The notes under the pieces: model-generated
Told to the model about the DNA's origin: nothing
The model's database searches: none
What the model saw: the letters and a program-made list of their open reading frames with translations, nothing else
NCBI GenBank assembly: GCA_025358765.1
Contig: JANYIG010000341.1
Coordinates: 1-45,656 of the forward strand
Direction of reading: 5' to 3'
DNA from: Candidatus Kapaibacterium sp.
Lineage (GTDB): Bacteria > Bacteroidota > Ignavibacteria > Kapaibacteriales > UBA4661
DNA: 45,656 nucleotides
Shown: positions 13,373-42,261 of the stretch, in pieces
Numbering within the stretch: position 1 is the stretch's first letter
How the letters are laid out: each line of letters begins with the position of its first letter
Translations under genes and position numbers: made by a program

Positions 13373-13378
13373 ATAATG

Positions 13379-13469
13379 CGGAGAGAGAGAGATTCGAACT
13401 CTCGGTAATGCTTTACAACACTACGACGGTTTAGCAAACCGTTGCCTTCAGCCACTCGGCCATCTCTCC
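13379..13469 (-). tRNA. tRNA-Ser (anticodon GCU)
   Basis: This 91-nt class II tRNA has acceptor stem GGAGAGA paired with TCTCTCC (discriminator G, CCA not encoded). The D-arm is GGCCGAGTGGCTGAAGGC-like. The anticodon stem-loop is ACGGT-TTGCTAA-ACCGT with anticodon GCU (reads AGC/AGU). A long variable arm typical of serine tRNAs follows, and the T arm is GAGAG-TTCGAAT-CTCTC. It has its own promoter and terminator. No integrase or duplicated tRNA 3' end is seen nearby, so it is not marking an obvious integrated element. Confidence 0.95.
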
Positions 13470-20683: not shown

Positions 20684-22498
20684 TCAGTAACCAACCGCCG
20701 TATCGTCACCACGAGGATCCGCGCCGCCTTCGAGCTTTTTAGGCTCCGATTTTTTCTTCGGTAGCACAAGAATCGCATCGACCTTGCCCATAGCGGCAAT
20801 GTCCGTGAACCTATGGCCCTTGTGCTCAAGCGCTTTTCGCACATCATCTGTAAACGCATCCTTTTCAGCTAACACTTGGTCGGGTAAATGTTGGTGATGA
20901 AAGCGTTTTGCGTTCACCGCCTCTTGCATTCCCATTCCATGTTCAAGCACATTCAAAATCGTTTGCATCACCGATGTGATAATCGTTGTACCGCCGGGTG
21001 AACCAACAACCATCAAGAGTTTACCTTTGTGCTCGACAATCGTGGGTGTCATCGAACTGAGCATTCGCTTTCCGGGTGCAATCGCATTCGCCTCGCCGCC
21101 CAACGCACCGAACATATTGGGAACACCCGGTTTCACAGAAAAATCATCCATTTCGTTGTTCATGAAAAACCCTGCGCCACCCACTACCACCCTTGATCCG
21201 TAACCGCCATTCAACGTGGTCGTAACAGAAACGGCGTTGCCTTTTTCGTCCACAATCGAAAAATGTGTGGTTTCCATGCTTTCGTACTGCTGCACAAGGT
21301 TACGACTGCCATGCGTGACCTCCGCGCTGGGTGTGGCTTTGTCAGGGTTAATGCTTTTCATGCGTTCGGCAATATATGCCGTATTCAACAAACCTTTGAC
21401 GGGAACTTTGTAGAAATCAGGGTCGCCGAGGTATTCCGCACGTTCAGCAAAATAGCGGCGTTCGGCTTCTATCATAAAATGCGCGGTTTTTTCCGCATTG
21501 TGTCCCCATTCTTTCAAGGGTTGGGAAGCCAGCATTTTCAGCATTTGCAGTACACCAACACCACCACTTGACGGCGGCGGCATTCCGATAATCGTATAAT
21601 CTTTGTATGTGCCTGCAAGCGGCGTACGCCATTTGGCGCGATAATCACGCAAATCTTCCTGCGTAATAATGCCCGCTGTTCCATTTGCGCCGCGATTCAT
21701 TTCTGCGACAAGGAAGTCTGCCGTTTTACCGCTGTAAAAACCCGCCCGTCCCTTGTCACGAATACGCTCCAACGTTTGTGCCAAATCTTCCTGTACCAAA
21801 AGTTCGCCAGCACTCCATTTTTGGGTTGTGTCCGCAGCAGATTTTAGAAAATATGATTTTTCGGGGTTATGCAACCGCACCGACGCACTAACGCTGTTCA
21901 ACCCTCGTGCTTCACGTTCTGTCAGCACAACGCCCTTCCGTGCAAGGTCTATGGCGGGTTGCACGAGTGCTTTCCACGAAAGTTTTCCATATTTTTTATG
22001 CGCCGCTACCATGCCGTCCACCACGCCCGGAACGCCTGAAGCCTTGTGACCAGCCATACTCAAGCCTTTAATGACTTGCCCAGTGGAATCTAAAAACATA
22101 TCGCGGAATGCCTTTTTCGGTCCAGCCTCACGGTAATCCAACGTATTTGTTTTGCCGTTTGCCAACCGTAGCACCATAAAACCACCACCACCGATGTTCC
22201 CCGCCACCGGATACGCCACCGCCAGCGCGAATTGCACTGCAATAGCAGCATCCACCGCAGTTCCCCCTTTTTGTAGGATTGACGCTCCGACTTTTGAGGC
22301 TTCGGGGTGCGCCGAAACGACCATTGCTTTTGAGCCAATCACCCCAACCTTTTTAGCACTCTCATTCACGACGGCATTTTGCGAAACGGCGTTGTCTTGT
22401 GCTTGAGCTTGACTAATGTCTGCGAACGAGCAATAAAGCCATAGACAACCAATAGCAATCATTTTAAGCATCGTAAAAGTCTGTCTTGCGTGTATCAT
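20684..22498 (-). CDS. ggt: Gamma-glutamyltransferase proenzyme
   Basis: This 604-residue periplasmic enzyme cleaves or transfers the gamma-glutamyl group of glutathione and related peptides. It is made as a proenzyme that cuts itself at a catalytic Thr. The N-terminus is a signal peptide (cleavage near SQAQAQ, ~residue 34). The motif METTHFSIVDEKGNAVS gives the cleavage Thr (first of large-to-small subunit boundary, about residue 410), followed by TTTLNGGYGS. The large-subunit substrate Arg is in NTLDYREAGP. The conserved GSPGGTTIIT lies in the small subunit, and the C-terminal GGADPRGDDTAVGY is the standard end. The length is normal. Its ATG overlaps the stop of the upstream coiled-coil gene (ATGA), so the pair is translationally coupled. 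Confidence 0.93.
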   Translation of the reverse strand: MIHARQTFTMLKMIAIGCLWLYCSFADISQAQAQDNAVSQNAVVNESAKKVGVIGSKAMVVSAHPEASKVGASILQKGGTAVDAAIAVQFALAVAYPVAGNIGGGGFMVLRLANGKTNTLDYREAGPKKAFRDMFLDSTGQVIKGLSMAGHKASGVPGVVDGMVAAHKKYGKLSWKALVQPAIDLARKGVVLTEREARGLNSVSASVRLHNPEKSYFLKSAADTTQKWSAGELLVQEDLAQTLERIRDKGRAGFYSGKTADFLVAEMNRGANGTAGIITQEDLRDYRAKWRTPLAGTYKDYTIIGMPPPSSGGVGVLQMLKMLASQPLKEWGHNAEKTAHFMIEAERRYFAERAEYLGDPDFYKVPVKGLLNTAYIAERMKSINPDKATPSAEVTHGSRNLVQQYESMETTHFSIVDEKGNAVSVTTTLNGGYGSRVVVGGAGFFMNNEMDDFSVKPGVPNMFGALGGEANAIAPGKRMLSSMTPTIVEHKGKLLMVVGSPGGTTIITSVMQTILNVLEHGMGMQEAVNAKRFHHQHLPDQVLAEKDAFTDDVRKALEHKGHRFTDIAAMGKVDAILVLPKKKSEPKKLEGGADPRGDDTAVGY

Positions 22499-23175
22499 TG
22501 TTTTTTCTTTCCTTCTTGTGGTTTAGGTTCTGGCTGCGTTAGAGCATCCATTTTGCGTTTGAGTTCTTCATGTTGGCGCTCTACCTCTTCGATGCGGCTT
22601 CGGAGCGCATTCAGTGAAATTTTGCCGAGATTAATAAGCACTTCATCTTTTGCGACTGATTCCTTGCGTTTAGCCTCAAGCTCTGCTTTTAATGCCGCAA
22701 TTACCTCATCTTTGGTGGCAATGTCCTTTTTCCTTAATTCTGCGTCGTTTTGCAGACCGCGTATTTGCTCATTGCGGTCAGCAACGTCTCGGCGACGGTC
22801 GGCGAGGTCGCTTGAAAGCGAGGATATATCAGCCCTACGAGCAGCAATCACGCTGTCTTTAATAACAATTTCTGCTTTGCGGGCGTTCAGGGAACTTGTG
22901 AGTGAGACGACTTCGACGAGCTTCTGCGCGAGGTCGCCACTAAGCGAATCAATAAATTGGTCTTTTTGCGAAAGTGTCATGGTCTGCAACTTAGAGCTGC
23001 GTTTGAACCCTTCCAATTCTTTGCGATAGCCTTCAATGTCTTTGTTTGCCTTGTTGACGAGTTCGGTCATTCGGTTCAATTGTGACTGACAATCCGTCTG
23101 CGACCATGCAGGCACAGACCAGAGGCAGAGAACGAGACCGACGACGGAACACCGTTGTTTGAGTGTTGATATCAT
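22495..23175 (-). CDS. Exported coiled-coil protein
   Basis: This 226-residue protein has a signal peptide (~1-25, VGLVLCLWSVPAWSQ), followed almost entirely by charged heptad sequence (QSQLNRMTELVNKANKDIEG onwards, through about residue 210). The tail is Lys/Pro-rich. Short repeated units K-x-E/D-V/I-x-x-D-x-V-I (ARKAEIVIKDSVIAA, RKKDIATKDEVIAA, KRKESVAKDEVLI) show internal duplication. It is probably a periplasmic elongated dimer or scaffold; no enzymatic motif is seen. Its stop overlaps the ggt start by 4 bases, an arrangement that suggests co-expression. Its own family is not recognised. Confidence 0.75.
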   Translation of the reverse strand: MISTLKQRCSVVGLVLCLWSVPAWSQTDCQSQLNRMTELVNKANKDIEGYRKELEGFKRSSKLQTMTLSQKDQFIDSLSGDLAQKLVEVVSLTSSLNARKAEIVIKDSVIAARRADISSLSSDLADRRRDVADRNEQIRGLQNDAELRKKDIATKDEVIAALKAELEAKRKESVAKDEVLINLGKISLNALRSRIEEVERQHEELKRKMDALTQPEPKPQEGKKKQ

Positions 23176-23552: not shown

Positions 23553-24689
23553 TCACTCCGCCAATGGCAATTGTACAATAAACGTCGCACCATGACCAAT
23601 CACGCTTTCGCACCAAACCCTGCCGTGCATCGCTTCTGCCATTCGCTTAACGATGGATAAGCCCAATCCCGTCGAACTTTCGCCGCCCGTCGGACGTGCA
23701 GAAAGTTTCGTAAACGTTTTGAATAAGTTTTTCTGGTCTTCGGCGCTAATACCTGGTCCTTCGTCCTGCACCTCTATGCGAATAGTTTTGTTTGCGATTT
23801 CACGCTGAACACGTAACGCAATACTTTTGCCCTGCGGCGAAAACTTGATGGCGTTCGAGACAAGGTTATCCAAAATCTGAATAATGGAAATTTCGTCACC
23901 AAGGGCGATTCCCCCTTCGTCCAGCTCGACGCTCAACGTCAGCGATTTCCCTTCGGCTTTGAGTCCGTAACTTTCTGCCGTCGCTTGGGTAATAAACGAA
24001 AGATTGATAGGCTGAATTTCGAGCCTGAGTTCGCCACGCTCCAAGGCGTTTACGTTCAATAAGTTTTTGATGATACTGAACATCTTGTTCGATTGCCCAA
24101 TAATCGTATCCAAACATTGGTCAGATGTCTCGCGGTCTAAATCCGGCGTTGTCCGCATGAACTCTGCCAAACCAGAAATACCAGAAAGCGGGTTCTTCAA
24201 ATCATGAACAGCCACACCTAAAAACTCATTCTTGATTTTATTAAGCTCCTGAAGTTCAGCGTTTTGCAAGAGTGTCTGCGCTTGCAAATTTCGGAGTTGA
24301 ACATGCGTTTTGAGTCGTGCAAACAGCTCCGGCGGACGGAAAGGTTTTGTAATATAATCCACCGCACCCAATTCAAAACCCTTCACAATATCAGCAGTTT
24401 CGTTTTTGGCAGTCAAGAAAATTACCGGAATGTCCATTGTGGCAGGGTTTTTCTTGAGTTCCTGACACACCTGGTAGCCATCCATTTCGGGCATTTGGAT
24501 ATCCAATAAAATTACATCGGGATTTTTGGCTTCTGCAATCGTAAGTGCCTGTTTGCCACTCATTGTGGCAATCACTTGAATGCTTTTAACACGCAACATT
24601 GCGCCAAGCATTTCGATATTCGCCGCCGTGTCGTCCACGATAAGCACTGTAGGCATTTCATGCTCTGTCGAAACCTCTAAGGTTTGCAT
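23553..24689 (-). CDS. Response regulator-histidine kinase (REC first)
   Basis: This 378-residue soluble protein has an N-terminal receiver domain (~10-130; Asp phosphosite in VILLDIQMPEMDGY, Lys in YITKPF), then a HisKA dimerisation helix with HDLKNP (His ~185), and an HATPase_c domain (N-box AIKFSPQGK, G1 DEGPGI, G2 TGLGLSIVKRM). There is no membrane segment or sensor domain, so the receiver is probably the input that controls the kinase. ATG 24689 is chosen because GGAG lies 10 bases upstream and the receiver starts right after it. An upstream ATG at 24779, overlapping the previous stop by 8 bases, is the alternative and would add 30 unrecognised residues. It directly follows the TPR-PAS kinase gene, which has no receiver of its own, so a phosphotransfer from that kinase to this receiver is plausible. 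Confidence 0.87.
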   Translation of the reverse strand: MQTLEVSTEHEMPTVLIVDDTAANIEMLGAMLRVKSIQVIATMSGKQALTIAEAKNPDVILLDIQMPEMDGYQVCQELKKNPATMDIPVIFLTAKNETADIVKGFELGAVDYITKPFRPPELFARLKTHVQLRNLQAQTLLQNAELQELNKIKNEFLGVAVHDLKNPLSGISGLAEFMRTTPDLDRETSDQCLDTIIGQSNKMFSIIKNLLNVNALERGELRLEIQPINLSFITQATAESYGLKAEGKSLTLSVELDEGGIALGDEISIIQILDNLVSNAIKFSPQGKSIALRVQREIANKTIRIEVQDEGPGISAEDQKNLFKTFTKLSARPTGGESSTGLGLSIVKRMAEAMHGRVWCESVIGHGATFIVQLPLAE

Positions 24690-24771
24690 TCTATGTTCTC
24701 CATAATATTGATACTGATTAACGTTAGTGGGTATATTGTACCGTTGATGTTGTGAAGCATTTATACGTGCA

Positions 24772-27700
24772 TCACGCATCTGTGCTTGTTTTCAGCCGCT
24801 GCACAAAAAGAGGGAATTCCTCAAACATTATTGTCATTTCTGCAATCTTAAAGGAAACAGATTTCATGTACAAATCTTTTCCATAGTGTTCCAATTCTGT
24901 GACGTTGAATTGCTTGCCAAGTTGTATCAACCGTTCAGCAAATATCTCAATATCCGTATTGATCATCATTTGTTCAATGTTTTTCCATAAATCCATTACT
25001 TCACCTTCCAGCAATGTCAGGAGTTCGGGGGACATTGTAGGAACAGCAACGTTTCGATCGGCATCTGGCGTAATAGTAGGCGTTTTTATGATATGGTTGT
25101 TATTCGTTATCATTAACGACGGTGCAATTGCCAGTGGCGATGGAGCATAATCTGTGGTAATGAGTTGCTGGTCAAATGCTGTCATCACCTGGACATTATT
25201 GAACTGCACGATGAATGACGAACCCTTGCCAACTTCGCTTTCGAGCCTTATTGTACCATTCATCATTTCCGTCAGACGCTTGCAAATAGTCAGCCCTAAG
25301 CCCGTTCCCTCGTAACGGCGCGTGTCCTGACCTTCTTGCTGGCGAAATGGCTCAAAAATAAGCTCATACTGGTTTTCAGGAATGCCAATACCGCTATCAC
25401 TCACGGTAAAAGTCAAATCTACGACTTCATGCTCAACAGCCGCTTGTGAAGGAGCTTGCGACAGTATTTTCGTGCCATCGGAAAACCCTTCAGACGACTT
25501 GATATGGCGTGCGGCATTCGTAGCATCCACGCGGAGCTTGATAAAACCCTCGTCGGTAAATTTTACTGCATTGCCGAGTAAGTTGAGCAGGATTTGGCGC
25601 AAGCGAATTTCGTCTAACAGCAGCACCTCAGGTAGGTTTGGGCTGGCTTCGATGACGAATTCCAAATCTTTCTGCTGCGCCTTCACAAAAAACGTCTGCT
25701 GTAATTCGACAAAGAGCTTGTAAGGATTCACAGGCTCGTAGCGAATATCGAGGCGACCTGCCTCAATCTTCGAAATATCAAGAACGTCGTTGATAAGATT
25801 GAGCAAATTATTGGCGGCAACGCTGATGCCCTGAATATAACTATCAAGCATAAAATCGCCCACCTGTTCGCGCAAAATATCGGCAAAACCCAAAATGGCG
25901 TTCATCGGCGTACGAATCTCGTGCGAGATATTAGCAATAAACTCCGATTTTGTACGATTTGCGGCATCGGCGGCTTCTTTAGCCGCAATCATTTGATCCT
26001 CGAAATGCTTGCGTTCGGTCACATCCCGCGACACGACAAGGATACTGGCAGGATTATCGTGAGAATCGCGCAACAAAACGAATTGATTTTCCGTGATGAT
26101 GACTGTTCCTTCGTTATTTACCGATTCCATCTCTATCGTCGGCACAGGAATACCTTGCCGCAACGTCTTCAGCACATTCGCAAAATGTTCATGCTTGCTG
26201 AATGCCATAAACTCTTGCGTTGGGATATTCTTCAATTCACTTGGCAATGTAAAACCAAACATTTCGGCATGACGCTGATTCGCCGATAGTAAACGCCCCT
26301 CAAGGTCTATCAGCGAAACCGCATCGGGAGAGGCTTCTACGAGTTTGCGATACAGTTCTTCGCTGGTGCGGAGTCGCTCTTCAGCTACTTTGCGCTTGTT
26401 GATATTTTCCATACTCAACGCCACACCCCAAAAAGCACCGTGCTCATCGGTTACAGGGGTGTATTTAACGGCATACCAGACGTTGGTACCGCGGGGGCTT
26501 GTAAAGGCAACATCTTCAACAACGGTCTCGCCTTGGGCTGCTCGCTGAAACCACGCATCGTGTACTTGCAGCAATGCCGGCTGGATATAGTCGCGCATAT
26601 ATTCACCAACAAGAACATTACGACCGAATTGCCGACGAATACCATTCGCTGCGATGATATTGAACGCCAAAATTTCCTGCCTAACACCAAGCAAAATATA
26701 GGCATTATGGCTGCTATTAAAAAGAGCCGTGAGCTTGCGTTCCGAGAGTATGAGGTCTTCTACAGCACGCTTGCGAGCGGAAATATCAGCGAATGTTACG
26801 ACGAGACCGTCTCCAAGTTTAACAAGAGCAACGTAGAGCCAAAACGTTGTTTCGTTCAATACCCATGGATACTCGAATTGAATAGGCGTACCCGTTTCTA
26901 TCACCTGAACGTAGCGCTCAAATAACGCAGCCAGTGGGTTATCCGGGATTTCTCGCAAAAGCCGTTTGGTAATAAGCTCATTGCCCGAAACACCCAATAT
27001 CCGCTCTGCGGCAGGATTGATAAGTGTCCATTGGAAATCTACAATGACACCATTTGCAGACCGCACCGACACAAACGTCATAATGCCGTCCAGCGAAGAA
27101 TTGGTGATGCCGGAAAGTAGTGACCGTGTGCCGGAAAGGATATTTTTTGCAACGATGCTTTCGGTTACATCTTGCAAAAAACCAAGAATAATGTTTTTAC
27201 CGTCAATAGAATTGCTGCTGAGTACTCCGCCAATGCGAATATATTTGATTCTGCCATCTGTTGTGAGCAATCGGCACTCGACTGAAGATTTTACGGGAGA
27301 ATTTGCAGCAAGGTCGGTAAAAAATTGCCGTACATCGGACACATCCTGAACATGGAGAAGCTCCAGAAAGCCATCTTTGCTATGCACAAGCGACTCCGAG
27401 CTTCGCTCCGTAATCGTTAAAAAATACTCCGTCCAGCGCATCATGTTTGTAATGATATCAAGCTCGAAACCAGCCGTCTTACTCAGGTTTTGAACCTGCG
27501 TGAGCATGGACTGGCTTTCACCAAGCTGACGTTTGGTGCGGAGCCGCAGGCGATACCGACTATAAAGCGCTAATGCGAGTAGTGCCAAAAGCGATACGCC
27601 AATGACAATCGTGTACAACAGTAAAGTTTGGCGATGTTTATCGTTTTGTAAAAGCTGAATTTCTTTGTCTTTATGCTCACTATTGTACTGGGCTTGGAGC

Positions 27701-28851
27701 TGCTCAATACGGTAAGCGCTTGTCTCGCTGAAAATTGAGTCGCGCACTGCTACAGCTTGGCGGAACGCCCGTAAAGCACTGTCAGATTTACCCAAACCAG
27801 AATATGCCTCCGCGAGCAGTTCATATGCAGCTTTACGGTCATTCTTCGAGCTATTCGTAGATTGAGTAAGTGCCCGTTCGGCATACCGAAGCGATTCGGT
27901 GTACTTTTTTTGTTGGCAATAGACGGTTCCTATATCATACAACAACGAAGAAAACCCGTCATCATACCCCATCTCCCGCAACAACGCCAACGCTTGGAAA
28001 TAGTATTTCAACGCTGCTTTTTGTCGATTCGCGTCGTCTTGCAACCCCGCACCGCTGCGTAAACGCTGCACATCGCCCATACATGTCAACGCTTCGGCTT
28101 GCGTTTCTTTGTCGCCGGCTTCCAATGCGGCATGGTGTGATTTCTCTGCGAACTCTACCGCACGCTCATATTTGCCCGTTAGTTTATAGACCTCTGCAAT
28201 ATTATTGAATATCCTCCCCATTGGACCTTGTTGATTGCGTTGATGTTGGACAATATCAAGCCCTTTCAGCAAATATTCCAATGCAACTTCGTATTGCCCT
28301 TGGTCTCTGTACAGCTCACCGATATTGAGATACGGGCGCAACATTCCGATGCTATCTCCTATCTGCTCACGAAAACGGAGATGTTCGAGATGATACTGCA
28401 ATGCTTGGTCATATTTTCCACGTTTTTGGTACATCAATGCAATACCGTTGAGCGCCCTCCCCGCAAGGTCATTTTGATGCAATTCGTAGGCAAGTTCGCG
28501 CTGTTTGGTGTACGACTCTATCGCAGACTGTTCGTTGTCCATCTGACGATAAATATTGCCTAACGAAAAATAAGCGTTCACTATGCCTTGTTGGTCGTGT
28601 ATTTGCTGCGCCACCGACAACGCTCGTTGGGCATAACCAAGAGCCTTTTGAGGCTGAATACGCCAGAATTGCCACGCGAGCGCATCCAAGCAGCGTACGA
28701 GCGCCGTGTCCGATTGTGTAAACATGCGTGGTTGATTGTCGTACGAAGCAAGAATGGCTTGGAGAGAATCACGGGACGAGACGAGAATAGAATCACGGAC
28801 AGCAAATGCTGGTGCCGTCTGCAAAAGCAAAATGCAACAAAACACCATCAT
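24772..28851 (-). CDS. TPR-multi-PAS sensor histidine kinase with C-terminal HPt-like helical domain
   Basis: This ~1359-residue membrane kinase begins with a signal peptide (MMVFCCILLLQTAPAFA). Periplasmic TPRs cover ~60-390, then come the linker QYNSEHKDKEIQLLQNDK and one membrane helix (~410-435) ending in YSRYRLR. Four PAS-type domains follow (~450-960), then HisKA with NISHEIRTPMNA and HATPase_c (N-box LGNAVKFTD, G2 EGTGLGLTICKRL). The C-terminal ~90 residues are a helical bundle (LLEGEVMDLWKNIEQMM onward) resembling an HPt fold, but without a clear HPt phospho-His motif. No receiver domain is present, although HEIRTP kinases usually carry or partner one; the REC-first protein downstream could fill that place. 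ATG 28851 gives a clean signal peptide; a GTG at 28872 is the alternative. Confidence 0.86.
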   Translation of the reverse strand: MMVFCCILLLQTAPAFAVRDSILVSSRDSLQAILASYDNQPRMFTQSDTALVRCLDALAWQFWRIQPQKALGYAQRALSVAQQIHDQQGIVNAYFSLGNIYRQMDNEQSAIESYTKQRELAYELHQNDLAGRALNGIALMYQKRGKYDQALQYHLEHLRFREQIGDSIGMLRPYLNIGELYRDQGQYEVALEYLLKGLDIVQHQRNQQGPMGRIFNNIAEVYKLTGKYERAVEFAEKSHHAALEAGDKETQAEALTCMGDVQRLRSGAGLQDDANRQKAALKYYFQALALLREMGYDDGFSSLLYDIGTVYCQQKKYTESLRYAERALTQSTNSSKNDRKAAYELLAEAYSGLGKSDSALRAFRQAVAVRDSIFSETSAYRIEQLQAQYNSEHKDKEIQLLQNDKHRQTLLLYTIVIGVSLLALLALALYSRYRLRLRTKRQLGESQSMLTQVQNLSKTAGFELDIITNMMRWTEYFLTITERSSESLVHSKDGFLELLHVQDVSDVRQFFTDLAANSPVKSSVECRLLTTDGRIKYIRIGGVLSSNSIDGKNIILGFLQDVTESIVAKNILSGTRSLLSGITNSSLDGIMTFVSVRSANGVIVDFQWTLINPAAERILGVSGNELITKRLLREIPDNPLAALFERYVQVIETGTPIQFEYPWVLNETTFWLYVALVKLGDGLVVTFADISARKRAVEDLILSERKLTALFNSSHNAYILLGVRQEILAFNIIAANGIRRQFGRNVLVGEYMRDYIQPALLQVHDAWFQRAAQGETVVEDVAFTSPRGTNVWYAVKYTPVTDEHGAFWGVALSMENINKRKVAEERLRTSEELYRKLVEASPDAVSLIDLEGRLLSANQRHAEMFGFTLPSELKNIPTQEFMAFSKHEHFANVLKTLRQGIPVPTIEMESVNNEGTVIITENQFVLLRDSHDNPASILVVSRDVTERKHFEDQMIAAKEAADAANRTKSEFIANISHEIRTPMNAILGFADILREQVGDFMLDSYIQGISVAANNLLNLINDVLDISKIEAGRLDIRYEPVNPYKLFVELQQTFFVKAQQKDLEFVIEASPNLPEVLLLDEIRLRQILLNLLGNAVKFTDEGFIKLRVDATNAARHIKSSEGFSDGTKILSQAPSQAAVEHEVVDLTFTVSDSGIGIPENQYELIFEPFRQQEGQDTRRYEGTGLGLTICKRLTEMMNGTIRLESEVGKGSSFIVQFNNVQVMTAFDQQLITTDYAPSPLAIAPSLMITNNNHIIKTPTITPDADRNVAVPTMSPELLTLLEGEVMDLWKNIEQMMINTDIEIFAERLIQLGKQFNVTELEHYGKDLYMKSVSFKIAEMTIMFEEFPLFVQRLKTSTDA

Positions 28852-28943
28852 TCGCTGGGAGGGAGGTATCACGAATATGCGTTGAATAGTGTGCTATATC
28901 GTTAGCTTCGGCGCTGTGTGCCGCTTACGCTGGTGTGTGTGTG

Positions 28944-31022
28944 TCAAACGCCTTCAAAGGATGCTGTTCGATCGCTTTGTGATGCGCTTGGGAGTTCGAC
29001 TACGAACGTTGCACCCGACGGAAGCCCGTCGCCAAACTCGCTTTCGCACCAAACGCGCCCGTTCATCGCCTCGACAACGCGCTTGACAATGGATAACCCT
29101 AATCCTGACGAATGTTCGCCCGCCGTTGGCTGCGCCGACAGCCTTGCAAATTTACCAAACACTCTGCTTTTGTCTTCATCCGACAAGCCTGGACCTTCAT
29201 CTTTAACAAGTATCAAATAACAAGGGTCAGGCAGCAAGCCAGAACTGTGTTTCTTGTTGTTTGTTGTTTGTTCCTTGACTTCGACCCAAATATTTTTACC
29301 ACGCGGAGAATATTTGATAGCATTCGAGACAAGATTTTCTAACACTTCATAGAGTCGGGCTTCGTCCGCCAGAACAAGGGCTTCAGCTTCTGGTATCGTA
29401 GTCAAGAGCCGTATTTGTTTAGCAGCCGCCCAATCATCGTAGTTATGAACAATTTCATGAACGAGGTCTATCGCATTCACCGCAATCAACGACACCGCTA
29501 ATTGACCAGATTCAATCATCGTGATGTTGAGCAAATCATTCACCGTATCACGCATTCTAAGCGCTGTGCGTTCAATATCGCCAATACGTTTGCGGAGTTT
29601 TTCTGGTGAAATCTGATCTTGGTGATTCTTCATAACACCGGAAGCAAGCACAATGCTGGTCAGAGGATTTTTTAGGCTGTGTGCCGCAATACCCAAAAAC
29701 TCACTCTTCTCGTTGTTGAGCGTTTCTAACATAGCATTGTGTTCGCGGAGCGCTACGTTCGCGCTTTGAATCTCCATTGTCTGCGCCATAATCAACAATT
29801 GGCTTTGGACAATGCGCTCATTTGCTTTCTTTTTGACGGAATAGCGGTTCACAGCAATACCTAATAACATTGCCAAGAGAATCGTTCCGCCAAGAAGCGA
29901 ATTGCGTACAGTGTTATGAATCTCTGCATCTTTAGTAAGCAATACGATTTGCTGCTCTTTTTGAACACTCTCGTATTGTTCACGAATCTGGGCTATGCGT
30001 TGTTTTGTATCCTCGCTCATAAGTGTATCCCGCAACGCAATATATTGCTTGTAGAGCATGAAGGATGTACCGGAATCACCAAGCGCAGCATAGATTTCCG
30101 AGAGATTGCCAAGTACGTCCTGTTTCTGCGGACGAATCCCTATGCTATCTGCCAGAACTAACGCCCGCCATGCGAACTCTAATGCCTTGCTATTGTCACC
30201 CAAGCCTTTATAGCTCTTACCGATATTATTAAACGATTCACTTTGCCCTTGACTGTTACCAAATTCTTGCAGAAGACCAAGCGCTCGAAAGTGGTATTGA
30301 AGCGCTTCAGAATGTTTTCCACGCTCGGTATAAATTATACCGATATTATTCAACGATGACCACTTGTGCGACTTATCCCCGTTTTGCTCCATGAGCTTTA
30401 GGGATTTTGTATAATACTCCAATGCCCGATTGTCATTGTCTTGCTTGTGGTAGGCTTCTCCGATGTTATTCAGGGTGTACGCCTGCCTTTGTTTATCACC
30501 CGCAGCCTCGAATGCTTTTAATGCCTTGAAATAATACTCCAACGCAATATCGTACTTTTCTTGCGCTACGTAGATACTACCGATATTATTGGATGCTCTT
30601 GCAATACCCGCATTGTCAAGGAGTTCGTCAGATAGTTTGAGCGATTTAAAATACGATTCAATGGCAACTTCATAACGACCGCACTTATCATACGACATCC
30701 CCAAGATGTTGAATGACTGCGCTACGCCGCGTAAATCGCCTATAGATTCAGCAACAGCAAGAGCCTGTGCGGCATATGAGGTGGACTGTTCGGGGTTTTG
30801 CGTCCAATACGCAATAGCCAGATTGTTTAATGCGTGAACGGTTGCCGTATCGGTACAGGGTTCTTTCAACAATCCCTGCACCACAAATTCTAACGAATCC
30901 ACGACTCTGCCATGCGAACGAGGAAATGCCGATCGGGAAACTCCTTGAGCATGAGCAAACACAGCACCAAAACAAACGCTACACAATGCCGCAAACCAAT
31001 ACATTCTACAATAATATATCAT
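28944..31022 (-). CDS. TPR sensor histidine kinase
   Basis: This 692-residue protein has a signal peptide (~1-26, WFAALCSVCFGAVFAHAQ). At least six periplasmic TPRs cover ~60-340 (repeats like ALEYYFKALKAFEAAGDKQ and NNIGxxY). The linker REQYESVQKEQQIVLLTK leads into one membrane helix (NSLLGGTILLAMLLGIAVNRY) ending in N-R-Y. A coiled linker (QTMEIQSANVALREHN) precedes HisKA (FLGIAAHSLKNPLTS) and HATPase_c (SNAIKYSPRGK, DEGPGL, SSGLGLSIVKRV). No receiver is present. AGGA lies 6 bases before ATG 31022. The 275-base gap upstream has a TATATTTG -7-like site (31210-31203, minus), so it may have its own promoter. Confidence 0.88.
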   Translation of the reverse strand: MIYYCRMYWFAALCSVCFGAVFAHAQGVSRSAFPRSHGRVVDSLEFVVQGLLKEPCTDTATVHALNNLAIAYWTQNPEQSTSYAAQALAVAESIGDLRGVAQSFNILGMSYDKCGRYEVAIESYFKSLKLSDELLDNAGIARASNNIGSIYVAQEKYDIALEYYFKALKAFEAAGDKQRQAYTLNNIGEAYHKQDNDNRALEYYTKSLKLMEQNGDKSHKWSSLNNIGIIYTERGKHSEALQYHFRALGLLQEFGNSQGQSESFNNIGKSYKGLGDNSKALEFAWRALVLADSIGIRPQKQDVLGNLSEIYAALGDSGTSFMLYKQYIALRDTLMSEDTKQRIAQIREQYESVQKEQQIVLLTKDAEIHNTVRNSLLGGTILLAMLLGIAVNRYSVKKKANERIVQSQLLIMAQTMEIQSANVALREHNAMLETLNNEKSEFLGIAAHSLKNPLTSIVLASGVMKNHQDQISPEKLRKRIGDIERTALRMRDTVNDLLNITMIESGQLAVSLIAVNAIDLVHEIVHNYDDWAAAKQIRLLTTIPEAEALVLADEARLYEVLENLVSNAIKYSPRGKNIWVEVKEQTTNNKKHSSGLLPDPCYLILVKDEGPGLSDEDKSRVFGKFARLSAQPTAGEHSSGLGLSIVKRVVEAMNGRVWCESEFGDGLPSGATFVVELPSASQSDRTASFEGV

Positions 31023-31202
31023 TCAATCCTACTTACCCTCAAATGAGTTTTATTCTGTGCTATTTCCATTGCAGTAGGACTATCAATACACTGCCAATCC
31101 ATCGTAGTACTGATGGATGTACACGATTGCGCTGGATGACACAACAAGCCAGATGGATTATAATAAAAAGGGACAAGACCCCCACAACAACACTCCCAAT
31201 TT

Positions 31203-31210
31203 CAAATATA
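31203..31210 (-). promoter_or_regulatory. Possible -7 element of an internal promoter
   Basis: TATATTTG on the minus strand matches the TAnnTTTG -7 consensus, as in front of the tRNA-Ser. No TTTG was found at the expected -33 spacing. It would give a ~175-base leader for the kinase gene starting at 31022. The rest of this 275-base gap shows nothing recognisable. Confidence 0.35.
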
Positions 31211-31297
31211 TGAAAAGTAGAGGAGTTTTTGAAGAGATTCTCTCACATTATTGTATGATGATGCCGGAACATAGCTCGCTACCCGCTTGAATTCAAG

Positions 31298-33430
31298 TCA
31301 TATTTGAGCAGGCAGTTCTACAATAAATGTTGCTCCACGCCCAAGCTCGCTTTCGCACCAAACGTTGCCGCTCATCGCTTCTACCATTTTTTTTACAATA
31401 GAAAGCCCCAAGCCTGATGAATGCTCTCCCGCCGTTGGCTGCGCGGTCAATCGTGTAAATTTTTTAAATAATTTTAACTGGTCGTTCTCGCTCAACCCAG
31501 GACCTTCGTCCTGTATCTCCACGCGTACCAAACGAGCGTGATGAGCAACCGTAGGCGACTTTAATCGCTGCAACGTTTTGCCATCGCCCTCCTGACCGAT
31601 ATCACGCTCAGGCGTAGTGCTGTTTCCATCATCTAACACACGGATAAACACATTTTTTTTGGGCGGCGAATATTTTATAGCATTAGAAAGCAGGTTTTCC
31701 AGAATTTCCATCGTGAAGTTTTTATCCGCAGATGCAATCAACGAATCCCCGCTTGTTTCCACGTGAATCGTAATTTGCTTTTCTTCAGACTGAGGGCGGT
31801 AGTGCCGCACAACCATATCCACAAGCTGCGGAAGGTCAAACGGCATAATTGCAACATTCATTTTTCCTTGCTCAATGGCGTTGACATCCAACAAATTCGT
31901 CACCAAAGCGAACATTTGTTCGGTGAGTGTCCGCATATCACCAGAAAATTCGTGAATTTCCGCCGGCGACAGCGCTTCTGCACGCTCGTTGAGCAATTTG
32001 GCGAGCAACCGCATGTTCGAGAGCGGGTTTTTTAGGTCGTGCGCCACCATACCGAGGAAATCGTTTTTCTCAATATTAAGCTCTGCTAACTCATAGTTTT
32101 TGAGCGCCAAAGCATCGTTAAACTGCTGAAGTTCCGTGTTGGCAAGCTCGATTTCGGCTGCTTGGTCTTCCACAATGCGTTGCTGGCGCGTAAGTGCTTC
32201 GTTCAATTCCTTCAGCAACGCTTCCGACGTGCGCTTGTGGCGATAGCGATTGATTAAAAGCGCAACCAGTAGGAGTAACAATGCCGAACCCGCAATGAGG
32301 GAGTTTCGCAGCACCGACAATACGCTAATTTCTCGCTCCTGATGCTCGGTCTCCACCCTCGTTTGCAAATCGGCAATATTATGCTGCATTTCCGCCGAGA
32401 GAATCAAGTCCTTAAGGTCGGTGTATCGTTGGTATTGCTCCAATGCGGCTTTGTCATTGCCCATGACGGTATAAACCTCGGAAAGCGCTTTATAGCTATT
32501 CTTAAGTTCATTGCGAAAGGTGTTTTCAGAGGCAATTCGCACCGATTCGTGTACCCATGACAAAGCCGAATCAAATTGGTGCTGGTGCATTGCACACAAT
32601 CCAATATTGCAGAGTAATGCCGCCTCAAAACGATGGTTTCTCAGTTTCCGCGCAAGCGGGAGCGCTTGGCGATGGTATGTCAATGCCTCCGTGTACCGTT
32701 GTTGATGTTGATAGACAAGAGCCATGTTGAACCACGACCAAAAAATATTGGGGTCGTTCAACGATTGATACAGTGTTGCCGAACGTTCCAAATTTACCAG
32801 CGCCTCACTATACCGTCGTTCAGCTTGGTACGTAGCACCGATATTGGCAAGAACCGTTGCAATGCGCTCCGTATTGTTCAAACTTTGGTACAACACTAAT
32901 GATTTTTGATGATACTCCAATGCCTGCACATTCTTATCCTGTGCTTTATAGACCAAGCCTATAAGGTTCAAACACGAAGCACGACCAGCATTATCATCGT
33001 CGCTCTCGAATAGTTTTAATGCTTGAAATAGATTATCAAGCGCAAAATCATAACGTCCTTGATTTTCAAAGACTAATCCTATGTTGAGCAGGGAATACGC
33101 TAATGCAGAATTATCCCGTCGCTGTTTTGCGAGCGCCCGTGCTTGCATGGCATACAGAAGAGACGAGTCCGGCGAAAGGTACCGATACGCACGAGCAAGG
33201 TTGTTTAAAACAGCCGCACGATGCTCCAACGACGTTGTAGCAAGGATTTTTCGCAGTGAATCAACAGAAGCGGCGTTCTGTGCGAACACAGATTCTACGG
33301 TGAATAGGATGAAAAATAGTGCCCCACACAGAGTCCCACACACCACAGTACGACAATGCGTGAAGTTCTTCAGCGCTTCTTTGAGGAAGCTAAAAACAAT
33401 GGATGGTATGGTATCTGCTGGTGAATGCAT
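31298..33430 (-). CDS. TPR sensor histidine kinase
   Basis: This 710-residue protein has a long n-region then a signal sequence (~27-51, FFILFTVESVFAQ). Periplasmic TPRs cover ~60-350 (ALEYHQKSLVLYQSLNN, ALNLERS-like units). The linker ETEHQEREISVLSVLRN precedes one membrane helix (LIAGSALLLLLVALLINRYR). The coiled linker is VEDQAAEIELANTELQQFN. HisKA has DFLGMVAHDLKNPLSN and HATPase_c has SNAIKYSPPKK, DEGPGLSEND and SSGLGLSIVKKM. It is closely similar in layout to the kinase at 28944-31022, with the same input module and linker, so the two are paralogues. It starts 24 bases after the cyclase gene stop, placing it in one transcript with the cyclase. Confidence 0.88.
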   Translation of the reverse strand: MHSPADTIPSIVFSFLKEALKNFTHCRTVVCGTLCGALFFILFTVESVFAQNAASVDSLRKILATTSLEHRAAVLNNLARAYRYLSPDSSLLYAMQARALAKQRRDNSALAYSLLNIGLVFENQGRYDFALDNLFQALKLFESDDDNAGRASCLNLIGLVYKAQDKNVQALEYHQKSLVLYQSLNNTERIATVLANIGATYQAERRYSEALVNLERSATLYQSLNDPNIFWSWFNMALVYQHQQRYTEALTYHRQALPLARKLRNHRFEAALLCNIGLCAMHQHQFDSALSWVHESVRIASENTFRNELKNSYKALSEVYTVMGNDKAALEQYQRYTDLKDLILSAEMQHNIADLQTRVETEHQEREISVLSVLRNSLIAGSALLLLLVALLINRYRHKRTSEALLKELNEALTRQQRIVEDQAAEIELANTELQQFNDALALKNYELAELNIEKNDFLGMVAHDLKNPLSNMRLLAKLLNERAEALSPAEIHEFSGDMRTLTEQMFALVTNLLDVNAIEQGKMNVAIMPFDLPQLVDMVVRHYRPQSEEKQITIHVETSGDSLIASADKNFTMEILENLLSNAIKYSPPKKNVFIRVLDDGNSTTPERDIGQEGDGKTLQRLKSPTVAHHARLVRVEIQDEGPGLSENDQLKLFKKFTRLTAQPTAGEHSSGLGLSIVKKMVEAMSGNVWCESELGRGATFIVELPAQI

Positions 33431-33454
33431 TCGTTGTGATTGATATGATGCTGG

Positions 33455-35422
33455 TCAGGAAGAAAAATTCTGCGTACTGTCAATTCTGCGCCTAAGCAGG
33501 AAATAGGTCGTCATTATGCCTTTGCTTTTAATCTCAACACCGCCGCGTTCTGCAAACTCAAATGTTGTTCGTAATTTGTCATACACCTCGCGGGTGCAAT
33601 GTATCTTTCCCGGTTCGCTGTGCGATTCCATACGGCTTGCAATGTTGACCGTGTCGCCCCAAAGGTCGTACGCAAATTTATTTTTGCCGATAATCCCCGC
33701 CACAACTGCCCCCGTGTGGATGCCAATCCGTAGCTGCAATGTTGTTTTGTGCATGGCATTAAAGAGTTCCAACGCTGCCAACATACCAAGCGCAGCCGTT
33801 CCCATAGCTTCGGCGCTGTGTTCAAGCGGCTCTGGAACACCACCTACCGCCATGTATCCGTCGCCGATTGTTTTAATCTTCTCCAATTTATGGGTTTCTA
33901 TCAACGCATCAAACTCCGAAAAAACAGTATTCAATAATGATACCACTTCTTGTGGCGGAATATGCGTGGAAAATGCCGTAAAACCAACAATATCGGCAAA
34001 TAAGACTGTTACATCATCAAAATGCTCGGCTATCAACTGTTCTCCGCCAAGCAAGCGTATGGCAATTGGAGCGGGAAGTACGTTCAGCAATAAACGTTCG
34101 GATTGCTCGTGCGCCAGTTGCAATGCGACATTGGCGTTCTCGATTTCGGCAGCTTGCCGCTTAATTTCATTGTTTACGCGCTGTTTCAGGCGGTAACGAT
34201 TGGTTACCAATACAATCATCACCACTGCCACCACAAGGCTTGCAATTAGCCCATAGCGGATCATTTGCTCGTTTTTTTTCACCAATGCAAGCTCCGCCTT
34301 CTGTGCGTCCGTCTCATATTTGAGCTGCACGTTGGCAATTTGGCGAACATTTTCTTCGTTGTTGATGGAATCACGTGTTGCGACCGAGAGCGATTGATAT
34401 TGAAACGCTTTGCGGTAATCGCCAAGCGCTTGATATGTGCGCCAAAGCAGTTCGCTCGACTCTTGAATATCGCGCGAATCGTGGTTGCTTTGGCTCAACA
34501 GCAAGGCATGATGCGCCTCTTCGAGCGCTTTTGGATATTCTTGTTTGTCAAGGTAGGTCGAAGCGATTTTCGCATAAATCGTCGGAATTCCTATCCGTGC
34601 TTGTACCTTCTCGGCAAGGTGCAAGGCGTTGTTGTAGTAACCAAGCGCTTCGTCAAATCTGCGTTCGCGTTGACTGAGTACACCAAGTTTGATGAGCGTT
34701 ACGTATAACTGCGCCGAATCCTTCATCTGCTGGCGAATATTGAATGCCCGCATAAAATATTGCGCCGCTTGACTGTATTGTTGTTGTGCTTCGTAGTGCT
34801 CGCCTAAGCGCACGTAGCTGTACGCAATGGCTTGTTTGTCGCCTTGTACCTCGAACAGACGAAGCGCTTGCAACAGATATTCGCCCGAACGCATGTAATC
34901 ACGCTCCATCCGATAGACATCACCAAGATTGTTGAGTGCGTAGCCCTGCTCGATTTTTGCGTCAAACTGTTGCGCGTATTTCAATGCCTCAAAAAAACAC
35001 CGCACAGCTTCCGTGTGGTTTGAAATATTGCGATACGTAATACCAAGCACGTTCAAGCATTCCGCAAGTTGATACCGTGCATCACTCTCGCCGCCTGCTG
35101 TACGAGCCGCGTCTACCGCCTGCAAACCATAATCCAATGAAAGCCGCAGCTCCGCCTTTCGATATTCCCAACTAAGCGCCCGAAGCGTCCGAATTCGCTC
35201 CACTACACGGTCAGAGCTTTGTGTTACGGTCAAAATAGCTTTTAGGCTATCAATAACAGGTTGCTGTTGTGGTATGACCGGCTTGACGGTTTTTGGAGGA
35301 TTTATAGAATTAGCTTGAGCGAACAGCATCGTTGAAGCCAGCACTACGAGCAGTGCGGATATTATCGTTACAAACCGCATTGCAGGCAGTTTCCCGCGCC
35401 AGATACAAGGTTGTGCTATCAT
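33455..35422 (-). CDS. TPR class III adenylate cyclase
   Basis: This 655-residue protein predictably makes cAMP from ATP at the inner face of the membrane. It has a signal peptide (~15-36), periplasmic TPRs (~55-380; AVRCFFEALKYAQQFDAKIE and similar), linker KYETDAQKAELALVKK, and one membrane helix (LIASLVVAVVMIVLVTNRYR). A coiled linker (AAEIENANVALQLAHEQSER) and the S-helix-like LLLNVLPAPIA lead to a class III cyclase domain (~460-640). Metal Asp residues are in LFADIVGF and IGDGYMA. The adenine-selecting Lys is in KIKTIGD and Asp in YDLWGDTVNIASRM; guanylate cyclases have Glu and Cys there. The transition-state Asn and Arg are in the last motif. It shares its sensor half with the neighbouring kinases. 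ATG 35380 is an alternative start. Confidence 0.88.
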   Translation of the reverse strand: MIAQPCIWRGKLPAMRFVTIISALLVVLASTMLFAQANSINPPKTVKPVIPQQQPVIDSLKAILTVTQSSDRVVERIRTLRALSWEYRKAELRLSLDYGLQAVDAARTAGGESDARYQLAECLNVLGITYRNISNHTEAVRCFFEALKYAQQFDAKIEQGYALNNLGDVYRMERDYMRSGEYLLQALRLFEVQGDKQAIAYSYVRLGEHYEAQQQYSQAAQYFMRAFNIRQQMKDSAQLYVTLIKLGVLSQRERRFDEALGYYNNALHLAEKVQARIGIPTIYAKIASTYLDKQEYPKALEEAHHALLLSQSNHDSRDIQESSELLWRTYQALGDYRKAFQYQSLSVATRDSINNEENVRQIANVQLKYETDAQKAELALVKKNEQMIRYGLIASLVVAVVMIVLVTNRYRLKQRVNNEIKRQAAEIENANVALQLAHEQSERLLLNVLPAPIAIRLLGGEQLIAEHFDDVTVLFADIVGFTAFSTHIPPQEVVSLLNTVFSEFDALIETHKLEKIKTIGDGYMAVGGVPEPLEHSAEAMGTAALGMLAALELFNAMHKTTLQLRIGIHTGAVVAGIIGKNKFAYDLWGDTVNIASRMESHSEPGKIHCTREVYDKLRTTFEFAERGGVEIKSKGIMTTYFLLRRRIDSTQNFSS

Positions 35423-35455
35423 AGAAATATTCGTAATTCGTGCAGAAATTTCTTC

Positions 35456-37378
35456 TTACGCCGTTTCTGGCGAGGGCTGCAAAACGGGCAGGGCGATAAT
35501 CACTTCTGTGCCGCTCCCTGTCTTGCTTTGAAGCTCAATCGTACCATGATGTTTCTCTATGATGTCGTAGGCAATCGTAAGTCCTAACCCGCGCCCTTCG
35601 CCAACATCCTTTGTCGTGAAAAAAGGCTCAAATACTCGTGTGCGGGTATTATCGCTTACGCCAACACCGTTATCACGAATGCTGATAATCACCCAATCAT
35701 CCACCGTACGTGTACTGATGCGAACTTCACCTCGAATATCGTCAGGAATAGCTTGTAAGGCGTTTTTCAGCACGTGCCAAAACACTTGATTGACCAACCC
35801 GGGATAGCACTCAATCTGCGGAACCTCATTGAACTCTCGTACAATACGAATTGCACCCGTAGAGTGTTGTTCATACTCGCGATGCAACATTGTAAGCGTG
35901 GACTCAAGCCCTTCGCCAACATCCGCAAATTTTAAGCCGTCTTCGTCCAAGCGCGTAAAATTTTGCAACACTCGCACAATTTCTGCTATCCGTCGTGCCC
36001 CTTCGTCAATGCTTGCTGCAAGATTACCCGTTTGCACCACAATTTCATCGAACGAAAGCTCATCTTTGAGTGCAGAAATTTCTGCCAACTGCCGCTCTAT
36101 ATCGTTCTTTATATCCGCCTCGATGGAAATATTGCTGTACGCATTGAGTACTCGCAACAAATAAACAAGATTCCGCTTGAGCGGCTTCACAGCACCAGAA
36201 ATGAAATTAACCGGATTGTTGATTTCATGCGCTATTCCGGCAGTTAGCTGCCCTAAACCTGCCATTTTTTCAGACTGCACAAGGTGTGTTTGTGCGGCTT
36301 TGAGCTTGCGGAGCGCTGCTTCAACTTCTTCGTTTTTCTCGTGCAATTGCACGTTGGCAAGCTCAATTTCACGAGCTTGTTCTTCCTGAACACCCAACTG
36401 GCGCTGGATTTCACCGTTTGCGCTCGCAAGCTGTGTAAGAGCGTTCTCAATTTGCTCGTTTTTTTCTTGCAGTTTCATATTCGCAACCTCAATGCCGTGT
36501 GATTGTTCTGCCATCGAACCCATCTGTCGGTGAATTTCCTCGTTTGCGTCCGTCAGGCGCTCATTTTTCTCGCGTACGTCTTCCAACATCCCACGAATAT
36601 TGGTTACCATCACGTTAAACGAGGCACTCAAGCCCCCGATTTCATCCTTCGATTCCACCAAAACGTTCACCTCGACATCGCCACGCGCCACCCGTCGCGC
36701 CGCAGCTTCCAAGCGTTGCACTGGACGGCTCAAAATCCGCGCCACGCCAACCCCCAACAACGCCCCAATAATGAGCGCACCAATGACCACTGAAAATAAA
36801 ATGGTCTTCACGCTGCTCGCGGTGAAGGCAGAGGCTTCGTAGAGCTTTTTGCCCTCGATATCCTGAATATCTACCAATTGCTGTACTACGCTTATCACGG
36901 CAACAATGCTGTCACTCATGATTTCGAGGTGAAATTTACGCGCAGAGTCTTTTTTATTATGACGACTAAGCAACAATTCGTGGTCGTGTAGTGTACGAAG
37001 GGTCGTTAAACTTGCCCTGAGCGTCTCTAACCCTCGTACTTCGGCTGGTACGTTATACGTTGCCGCAAAGTTACTGAGTTGCTGGTTGATATTGTGGTCA
37101 AGCACGTAGATATCGTCTTCGTAACGCTTCATCACACCGACGTTTGTTGTTTGAAGGTGGTTTGCAAGCTGCGAGCGCATGGTCATCAAGTCGCTACTGA
37201 TGCGAAACATCTGTACAGCCGCCATCAAACGGTCGTTATACATCGAGTCGGATCGGTCAAGGATACGCACCACGCCCCAACCACCCGTTATGCCCACAAT
37301 GAGCGTCAACACAAGCATCACAGCAAACGAAATCAAGAGCTTGGAGAAAATAGAAATATCGTAAAACCAGCGTAGCAT
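35456..37378 (-). CDS. 4HB-HAMP sensor histidine kinase
   Basis: This 640-residue kinase is the first gene of the array in transcription order. It has a membrane helix (~14-36) and a periplasmic four-helix bundle of the MCP type (~37-205). A second helix (VIGALIIGALLGVGVARIL) leads to HAMP (RPVQRLEAAARRVARGDVEV). A coiled linker contains two ~38-residue repeats (EQSHGIEVANMKLQEKNEQ, EQAREIELANVQLHEKNEE), then comes HisKA of the KMAGLGQLTAGIAHEINNP type, and HATPase_c (ALQAIPDDIRGE N-box region, DNGVGV, GRGLGLTIAYDII). No receiver is present. ATG 37378 (MLRWFYDIS) is preferred: GGAG lies upstream and the helix follows. The open frame continues to 37423 inside a heptamer repeat array, which is unlikely to be coding. 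It ends 33 bases before the cyclase. Confidence 0.88.
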   Translation of the reverse strand: MLRWFYDISIFSKLLISFAVMLVLTLIVGITGGWGVVRILDRSDSMYNDRLMAAVQMFRISSDLMTMRSQLANHLQTTNVGVMKRYEDDIYVLDHNINQQLSNFAATYNVPAEVRGLETLRASLTTLRTLHDHELLLSRHNKKDSARKFHLEIMSDSIVAVISVVQQLVDIQDIEGKKLYEASAFTASSVKTILFSVVIGALIIGALLGVGVARILSRPVQRLEAAARRVARGDVEVNVLVESKDEIGGLSASFNVMVTNIRGMLEDVREKNERLTDANEEIHRQMGSMAEQSHGIEVANMKLQEKNEQIENALTQLASANGEIQRQLGVQEEQAREIELANVQLHEKNEEVEAALRKLKAAQTHLVQSEKMAGLGQLTAGIAHEINNPVNFISGAVKPLKRNLVYLLRVLNAYSNISIEADIKNDIERQLAEISALKDELSFDEIVVQTGNLAASIDEGARRIAEIVRVLQNFTRLDEDGLKFADVGEGLESTLTMLHREYEQHSTGAIRIVREFNEVPQIECYPGLVNQVFWHVLKNALQAIPDDIRGEVRISTRTVDDWVIISIRDNGVGVSDNTRTRVFEPFFTTKDVGEGRGLGLTIAYDIIEKHHGTIELQSKTGSGTEVIIALPVLQPSPETA

Positions 37379-39072: not shown

Positions 39073-39133
39073 TTGTTGAAAATGTGAAAGTTCAAGACAG
39101 ATTTTTTTCTATCAATCTTCTGGAGGAGTTGTG

Positions 39134-42094: not shown

Positions 42095-42106
42095 CCAAAA
42101 TTTAGT

Positions 42107-42240
42107 ACCTAACGGATTTGACCGCCGAGGCTTGAGAGAACGCAGAGAATCAAAAATCTGCAACAGAGATTGTCTAAATGATATTTCCAAACTCCGCGCC
42201 CTCAGCGCCTCTGCGGTTATTGTATCGCAAAGCGTTAGGT
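42107..42240. repeat. Long inverted-repeat hairpin between susC and susD
   Basis: Perfect outer arms, ACCTAACG (42107-42114) and CGTTAGGT (42233-42240), enclose longer imperfect arms: ACCGCCGAGGC... (42121-42149) against ...GCGCCTCTGCGGT (42191-42216). The inner arms resemble the ACCGCAGAGGCGC-type repeat found between genes in many genomes. In RNA it would form a large hairpin 21 bases before the susD start. Confidence 0.6.
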
Positions 42241-42261
42241 GCCACAATCAGGAGAAACTAT

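Follow-up and report, generated by a model that had tools for sequence, protein, structure and literature searches.

A six-gene signalling array in Candidatus Kapaibacterium as a probable cluster of independent TPR receptors with a heptad-quantised joint

Background

FimS of Porphyromonas gingivalis has several periplasmic TPRs between two N-terminal transmembrane (TM) segments and a histidine kinase as its output. According to the accessible part of its description, a peptide-like ligand has only been suggested, and point mutations in the TPRs change the output (PMC11053733). Two further kinds of described system concern the way in which inputs are joined to outputs. The S-helix is a parallel coil of ~40 residues that connects inputs of many kinds to a kinase, cyclase or phosphatase as output and has an Asn at an 'a' position (PMC1592074). 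In LOV and phytochrome kinases and in PadC diguanylate cyclases, linker lengths are separated by multiples of seven residues, and activity varies with the phase; one added residue can invert the response, and 54% of PadC linkers are divisible by seven (PMC6798134, PMC9587094).

Here we describe an array of six signalling genes in a stretch of 45,656 nucleotides (the window), which is one contig of a 4.86-Mb Candidatus Kapaibacterium genome assembled in 362 contigs. The order of the modules, the catalytic residues, the quantisation in heptads, the conservation of the coil, output swapping and dispersal were computed directly. Our reading, to which we assign a probability of roughly 0.7, is that the array is specific to this lineage and groups independent receptors drawn from a single large modular family, with outputs heptad-locked at the joint. 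The FimS-type architecture of signal peptide, periplasmic TPRs, TM segment, HisKA and HATPase is seen in P0002, P0003 and P0004, with the export signal assigned by hydropathy. Unlike the array, FimS is one kinase with its own response regulator, FimR; the accessible text on FimS mentions neither cyclase outputs, nor arrays, nor a shared joint coil, and the likeness considered here is one of architecture (PMC11053733). The array itself is ordinary. The notable part is a joint that is conserved in sequence, locked in heptads and able to carry many outputs.

Organization of the array

The features of the array are collected in Table 1. A preliminary description had reported six same-strand signalling genes with gaps of 24, 33, 71 and 82 bases and one 275-base break, and an ORF check of the window recovered all of this on the minus strand between 23553 and 37423. 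The order from upstream to downstream is P0006, P0005, P0004, P0003, P0002, P0001; from P0001 towards P0006 the gaps are 82, 71, 275, 24 and 33 bases, values that assume start M31 for P0001 and start M16 for P0006. Terminator-like stems occur across the region about as often as expected by chance (19 observed, 18.7 expected), and the stem in the 275-base break thus decides for neither one nor two transcripts.

Table 1. Genes of the array and features mapped within them
Feature	Position	Strand	Description	Basis
P0001	23553..24779	(-)	soluble REC-HisKA-HATPase; true start probably M31, 24689	Pfam: REC, HisKA, HATPase
P0002	24772..28872	(-)	TPR-TM-four PAS-HisKA-HATPase	Pfam: TPR, PAS, HisKA, HATPase
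P0003	28944..31022	(-)	TPR-TM-coil-HSLKNP histidine kinase	Pfam: TPR, HisKA, HATPase
P0003 joint coil	29712..29819	(-)	diverged copy; phase 5; 54 residues from box to His448	
Break	31023..31297	(-)	275 bases; terminator-like stem 31183-31169, strength at chance level	
P0004	31298..33430	(-)	TPR-TM-coil-HDLKNP histidine kinase	Pfam: TPR, HisKA, HATPase
P0004 joint coil	32087..32203	(-)	phase 5; 68 residues from box to His464	
P0005	33455..35422	(-)	predicted signal peptide, periplasmic TPRs, TM, short coil, class III adenylate cyclase	Pfam: TPR, Guanylate_cyc (2.8e-63)
P0005 joint coil	34094..34174	(-)	residues 417-443, shortened variant; phase 6; 34 residues from box to LLLNVLP	
P0005 TPR domain	34388..35263	(-)	about residues 54-345; predicted TPR superhelix	high confidence
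P0006	35456..37423	(-)	4HB_MCP periplasmic sensor, HAMP, two coil copies, HEINNP-type histidine kinase	Pfam: 4HB_MCP, HAMP, HisKA, HATPase
P0006 coil copy 2	36302..36421	(-)	42 residues (6 heptads) on from copy 1	profile E 1.5e-16
P0006 coil copy 1	36428..36547	(-)	RQQxxLEEQAxEIELAN	profile E 1.2e-10

The four genes P0002 to P0005 do share the input half attributed to them earlier, namely a signal peptide, TPRs, a YExE stalk, a TM segment and an N-R-Y or R-Y-R box, and the Pfam matches agree with the differing outputs (HisKA kinases, a four-PAS kinase and a class III adenylate cyclase) proposed for this common input. In each of the four an N-terminal hydrophobic segment closes with an AxA-like site, which by hydropathy predicts an export signal, and the single internal TM segment is followed by SRYRLRLR, NRYSVKKK, NRYRHKR or NRYRLKQR. 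The TPR half is absent from the first and last genes of the array, P0001 and P0006. A motif scan together with Pfam found the H, N and G1 boxes intact in the kinases P0001 to P0004 and P0006. The REC domain of P0001 is a candidate phosphate acceptor for the array kinases; no DNA-binding response regulator was seen in the array.

The cyclase P0005 carries a complete catalytic set (D477, K517, D521, D586, N593, R597), comprising the two metal Asp, the Lys/Asp adenine pair and the transition-state Asn and Arg of class III, and all six residues are invariant among 11 TPR-cyclases. It resembles class III adenylate cyclases such as the bacterial 7yz9 and mammalian AC in having its metal, specificity and transition-state residues complete, and differs from both in its input, a single-pass TPR receptor. 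P0005 may make cAMP for the cNMP-binding proteins of this genome, in which seven cNMP-binding stretches are possible targets of the cyclases. The AlphaFold model of P0005 is reliable for the TPR part only: most ten-residue blocks of the TPR superhelix have pLDDT of 84-97, pLDDT is low in the stalk and coil, and the cyclase part is unusable. In this model the superhelix continues into one helix spanning 336-445, and the predicted TPR fold resembles those of LGN, kinesin light chain (KLC) and Rap. All three of these proteins bind peptides. A gamma-glutamyltransferase gene lies ~10 kb from the TPR-cyclase both in the window (20684-22498) and in G004 (L018:972-2759), and the two enzymes are 61.6% identical. 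This common neighbourhood gives a hint that P0005 could sit at an old locus around which the array has grown.

The sensor family and relatives of the array genes

A profile of the TPR-stalk-TM-coil module matched 42 places in this genome, corresponding to about 35 genes, and 14-46 places in each near relative within the family. Among the outputs joined to the TPR half are HisKA, HEINNP-type and HisKA_3 kinases, chemoreceptor signalling tails, SpoIIE phosphatases and class III cyclases. The C313 array opens with a 542-residue TPR sensor (L022:523-2151) that has no recognised output domain. Twenty-three of the 35 TPR sensors of this genome sit in four same-strand runs of 7, 6, 6 and 4 genes, in which sensors of the propeller, 7TMR and REC types are interspersed. 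Only pairs and triples are seen in G003 and G007, holding 12 of 36 and 12 of 44 TPR sensors, respectively.

It is possible, though in our judgement unlikely, that the arrays go back to the ancestor of the family and fell apart in the sister genus, instead of having been gathered in this lineage. TPR-sensor arrays occur in other families of the order too, groups of paralogues are spread over several of the arrays, and the gamma-glutamyltransferase is found near the cyclase orthologue in G004 as it is in the window. Against this, G003 shares no adjacency of array genes, and the runs in G003 and G007 are pairs and triples of other members. Duplication of a whole array en bloc was considered and rejected: some paralogue groups have one member in each array, but their orders are not colinear.

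The preliminary description had further suggested that the array could work as a single system, with phosphorylation and cAMP production both driven by a shared periplasmic ligand or by contact between TPRs. The common strand, short gaps and similar architecture speak for this, and the terminal REC-kinase could collect phosphate, yet we consider such a system improbable on the evidence of orthologues and phylogeny. The gene order, expected to be kept in related genomes, is found in no family genome examined, and a conserved operon in the family was rejected. P0004 has one orthologue (46-49% identity) in seven of nine family relatives, and P0005 has one (41-44% over the TPR half) in two; these sit alone among non-signalling genes, and none of the P0004 orthologues was seen beside other sensors of this kind. 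For three of the six genes, P0002, P0003 and P0006, the thresholds used gave no clear orthologue within the family. A collecting REC-kinase is likewise not a constant part of the arrays, being present in C60 and C25 and absent from C313 and C212.

The expected recent duplication of the four TPR halves did not hold either. The TPR half of P0005 is 24-27% identical to the other three in the window and 18-28% identical to the remaining TPR halves of the genome. A tree of 78 TPR halves, which has many weak forks, scatters the window's four and places the nearest relative of each outside the array; a tree constrained to unite them is worse by 167 log units (AU p=0.0008). Several array members have well-supported one-to-one partners in G003, which lie on contigs C32, C34, C66, C70, C69 and C1. 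Since the relatives of array members are scattered and their orthologues dispersed, position in an array is here independent of descent. As a cluster of independent receptors, the array would reflect shared expression at most and not a conserved pathway, and same-strand runs of paralogous sensors should not be read as one pathway.

The joint coil

In the coil-bearing TPR proteins, P0003 to P0005 included, a coil directly follows the membrane box, with the consensus aNxEIlRQQxiLEeQAxEIElaNTxLqExNxxLexxNxxL; no such coil follows the TM segment of P0002. The recurrence is of seven residues, with mostly Asn, otherwise Gln or Ala, at the 'a' positions and Ile or Leu at 'd'. It occurs in kinases and cyclases of the TPR type, in the 4HB-HAMP kinase P0006, in propeller kinases and in a small number of other cyclases; the 147 non-signalling ORFs in the fetched loci all lack it. 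The coil profile matched 50 places in this genome and two in G017. It gave no match in the other sampled genomes of the phylum, a sample without family relatives; those relatives carry the coil, and there is one copy in G015. Like the S-helix, the joint coil has ~40 residues, lies between input and output and has Asn at 'a'. The S-helix differs in having ERT at c-d-e of its central heptad (PMC1592074), where nearly all of 48 copies of the joint coil have E-I-E; because this signature is absent we do not class the joint coil as an S-helix, though it may work like one.

Heptad lock of the joint length

Lengths were counted from the Tyr of the NRYRxK box, an anchor fixed by the TPR profile. The distance from the box to the phosphoaccepting His takes 11 values (40, 47, 54, 61, 68, 75, 82, 89, 103, 117 and 145), and all 46 kinases with a joint of <150 residues, that is with no long inserted region, share one phase. 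From the box to LLLNVLP the cyclases have seven lengths (27, 34, 41, 48, 55, 62 and 69); the 11 directly coupled cyclases are all in one phase, other than that of the kinases, and three of three HEINNP kinases are in a third. When moduli 3-12 were compared, 7 alone gave a single-phase pattern, and control distances within the kinase domain were spread over the phases. Being homologous, these proteins are not independent cases, and their counts make the evidence look stronger than it is; length changes are a fairer measure, though tree-dependent, and by parsimony on the TPR tree number at least 26 for kinases and at least 7 for cyclases. When the register of the coil is extended arithmetically, the His of the HDLKNP type falls at an outer 'f' position, as expected if the coil and the DHp helix are one.

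The rule was derived from G000 and family relatives, mainly G003. In an out-of-sample set of 46 TPR proteins from G007 and G002, many of them <60% identical to the first set, the phase was kept in 27 of 29 kinases, six of six cyclases and the one HEINNP kinase; the two exceptional kinases are each off by one residue. For proteins with an extra domain between box and output the rule is incomplete, and some disobey it. On the periplasmic side, the distance from stalk to box is 37, 44, 51 or 58 in 56 of 71 proteins and 41, 48 or 55 in 12, lengths that differ by whole heptads or by a step of 3 or 4 residues.

Steps of seven residues might arise by slippage in the repeated DNA of the coil and not by selection on phase, given that the coil is itself a heptad repeat and that some members have two copies 28 or 42 residues apart. 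We find this very improbable: tandem repeats are absent from the DNA of the array, the rule also holds for the shortest joints and the periplasmic side, where the RQQ coil is absent, and phase loss through other indels is almost never retained.

Heptad-length linkers as such are already known, and what is new here is the breadth of the rule and the output-specific phase. LOV, phytochrome and PadC proteins present one sensor type with one output, whereas here one TPR sensor family is joined to several outputs, each in its own phase. Adherence to phase is near 100% here, against 54% in PadC, and, unlike in those systems, the coil is conserved in sequence and common to other sensor types.

Exchange of outputs and proposed mechanism

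A kinase (L021:2220-4292) and a cyclase (L027:5297-6601) are 67% identical over TPRs, stalk, TM segment and coil, and the identity ends at the start of the outputs; this pair is a recent output swap, made at the joint. The tree supports further neighbours that differ in output, among them P0002 and L058, of which the latter is a cyclase, and the cyclase L024 and the kinase L023:364. Overall, output changes between kinase and cyclase at least 10 times on the TPR tree.

We propose that the TPR proteins are membrane receptors, probably homodimeric, whose periplasmic TPR superhelix would bind a peptide or protein. The last TPR helix is predicted to run unbroken through the YExE stalk, the membrane and the coil, which in a dimer would be parallel and two-stranded, into the output. 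Ligand binding may change the twist or register of the coil and so switch the kinase or cyclase, an analogy drawn because LOV and phytochrome kinases and PadC favour seven-step linkers (PMC6798134, PMC9587094). An output would work when joined in its own phase. With the joint heptad-locked, outputs would be interchangeable, and if an in-phase output works, recombination at the joint could exchange a kinase for a cyclase. The targets of the array kinases are probably response regulators encoded elsewhere or the REC domain in P0001.

Because about 50 places carry a nearly identical joint coil in the same register, TPR kinases and TPR cyclases of one array might even pair in mixed dimers or bundles, forming a combinatorial sensor hub from one operon, a conjecture that we regard as a long shot; if it were true, the output of the hub would be set by which receptor halves meet. 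More generally, this one bacterial family offers a large natural set in which one sensor type is joined, through a quantised joint, to kinases, cyclases, SpoIIE phosphatases and chemoreceptor tails. The idea that membrane signals are changes of coil register becomes a testable and usable rule, namely that an output should work in its own phase.

Other arrays and neighbouring genes

The idea that a single TPR sensor gave rise to the array through recent tandem duplication, for which the head-to-tail paralogues and the soluble TPR-cyclase array of G017 could be cited, deserves almost no credence, since each window TPR half has its best match outside the array, monophyly is rejected as above and none of the four arrays contains an internal sister pair. 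The G017 array, which belongs to another family, stems for the most part from local expansion of soluble TPR-cyclases. In G017 and G015, which represent other families of the order, soluble TPR-adenylate cyclases stand head to tail in arrays of 4-6 genes (L083, L085, L086 and L087); these proteins are mostly without a TM segment, and their cyclase ends are very alike. In G015, more than 20 genes of this kind are present in 3.0 Mb.

Within the window, the same strand carries an uncharacterised ORF of 226 residues (22495-23175) immediately downstream of the array, with a sub-threshold Pfam match only. A tRNA-Ser gene at 13378-13469 is flanked by two large proteins (9971-13300 and 13615-19095) that have secretion sorting tails as well as propeller and CUB domains. 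Such tails, a SusD-like protein and a TonB receptor together suggest the Bacteroidota/Chlorobiota side. On the plus strand, 39131-45656 encodes a TonB receptor, a SusD-like protein and an alginate lyase/heparinase-like enzyme, and is probably a polysaccharide-use locus adjoining the array.
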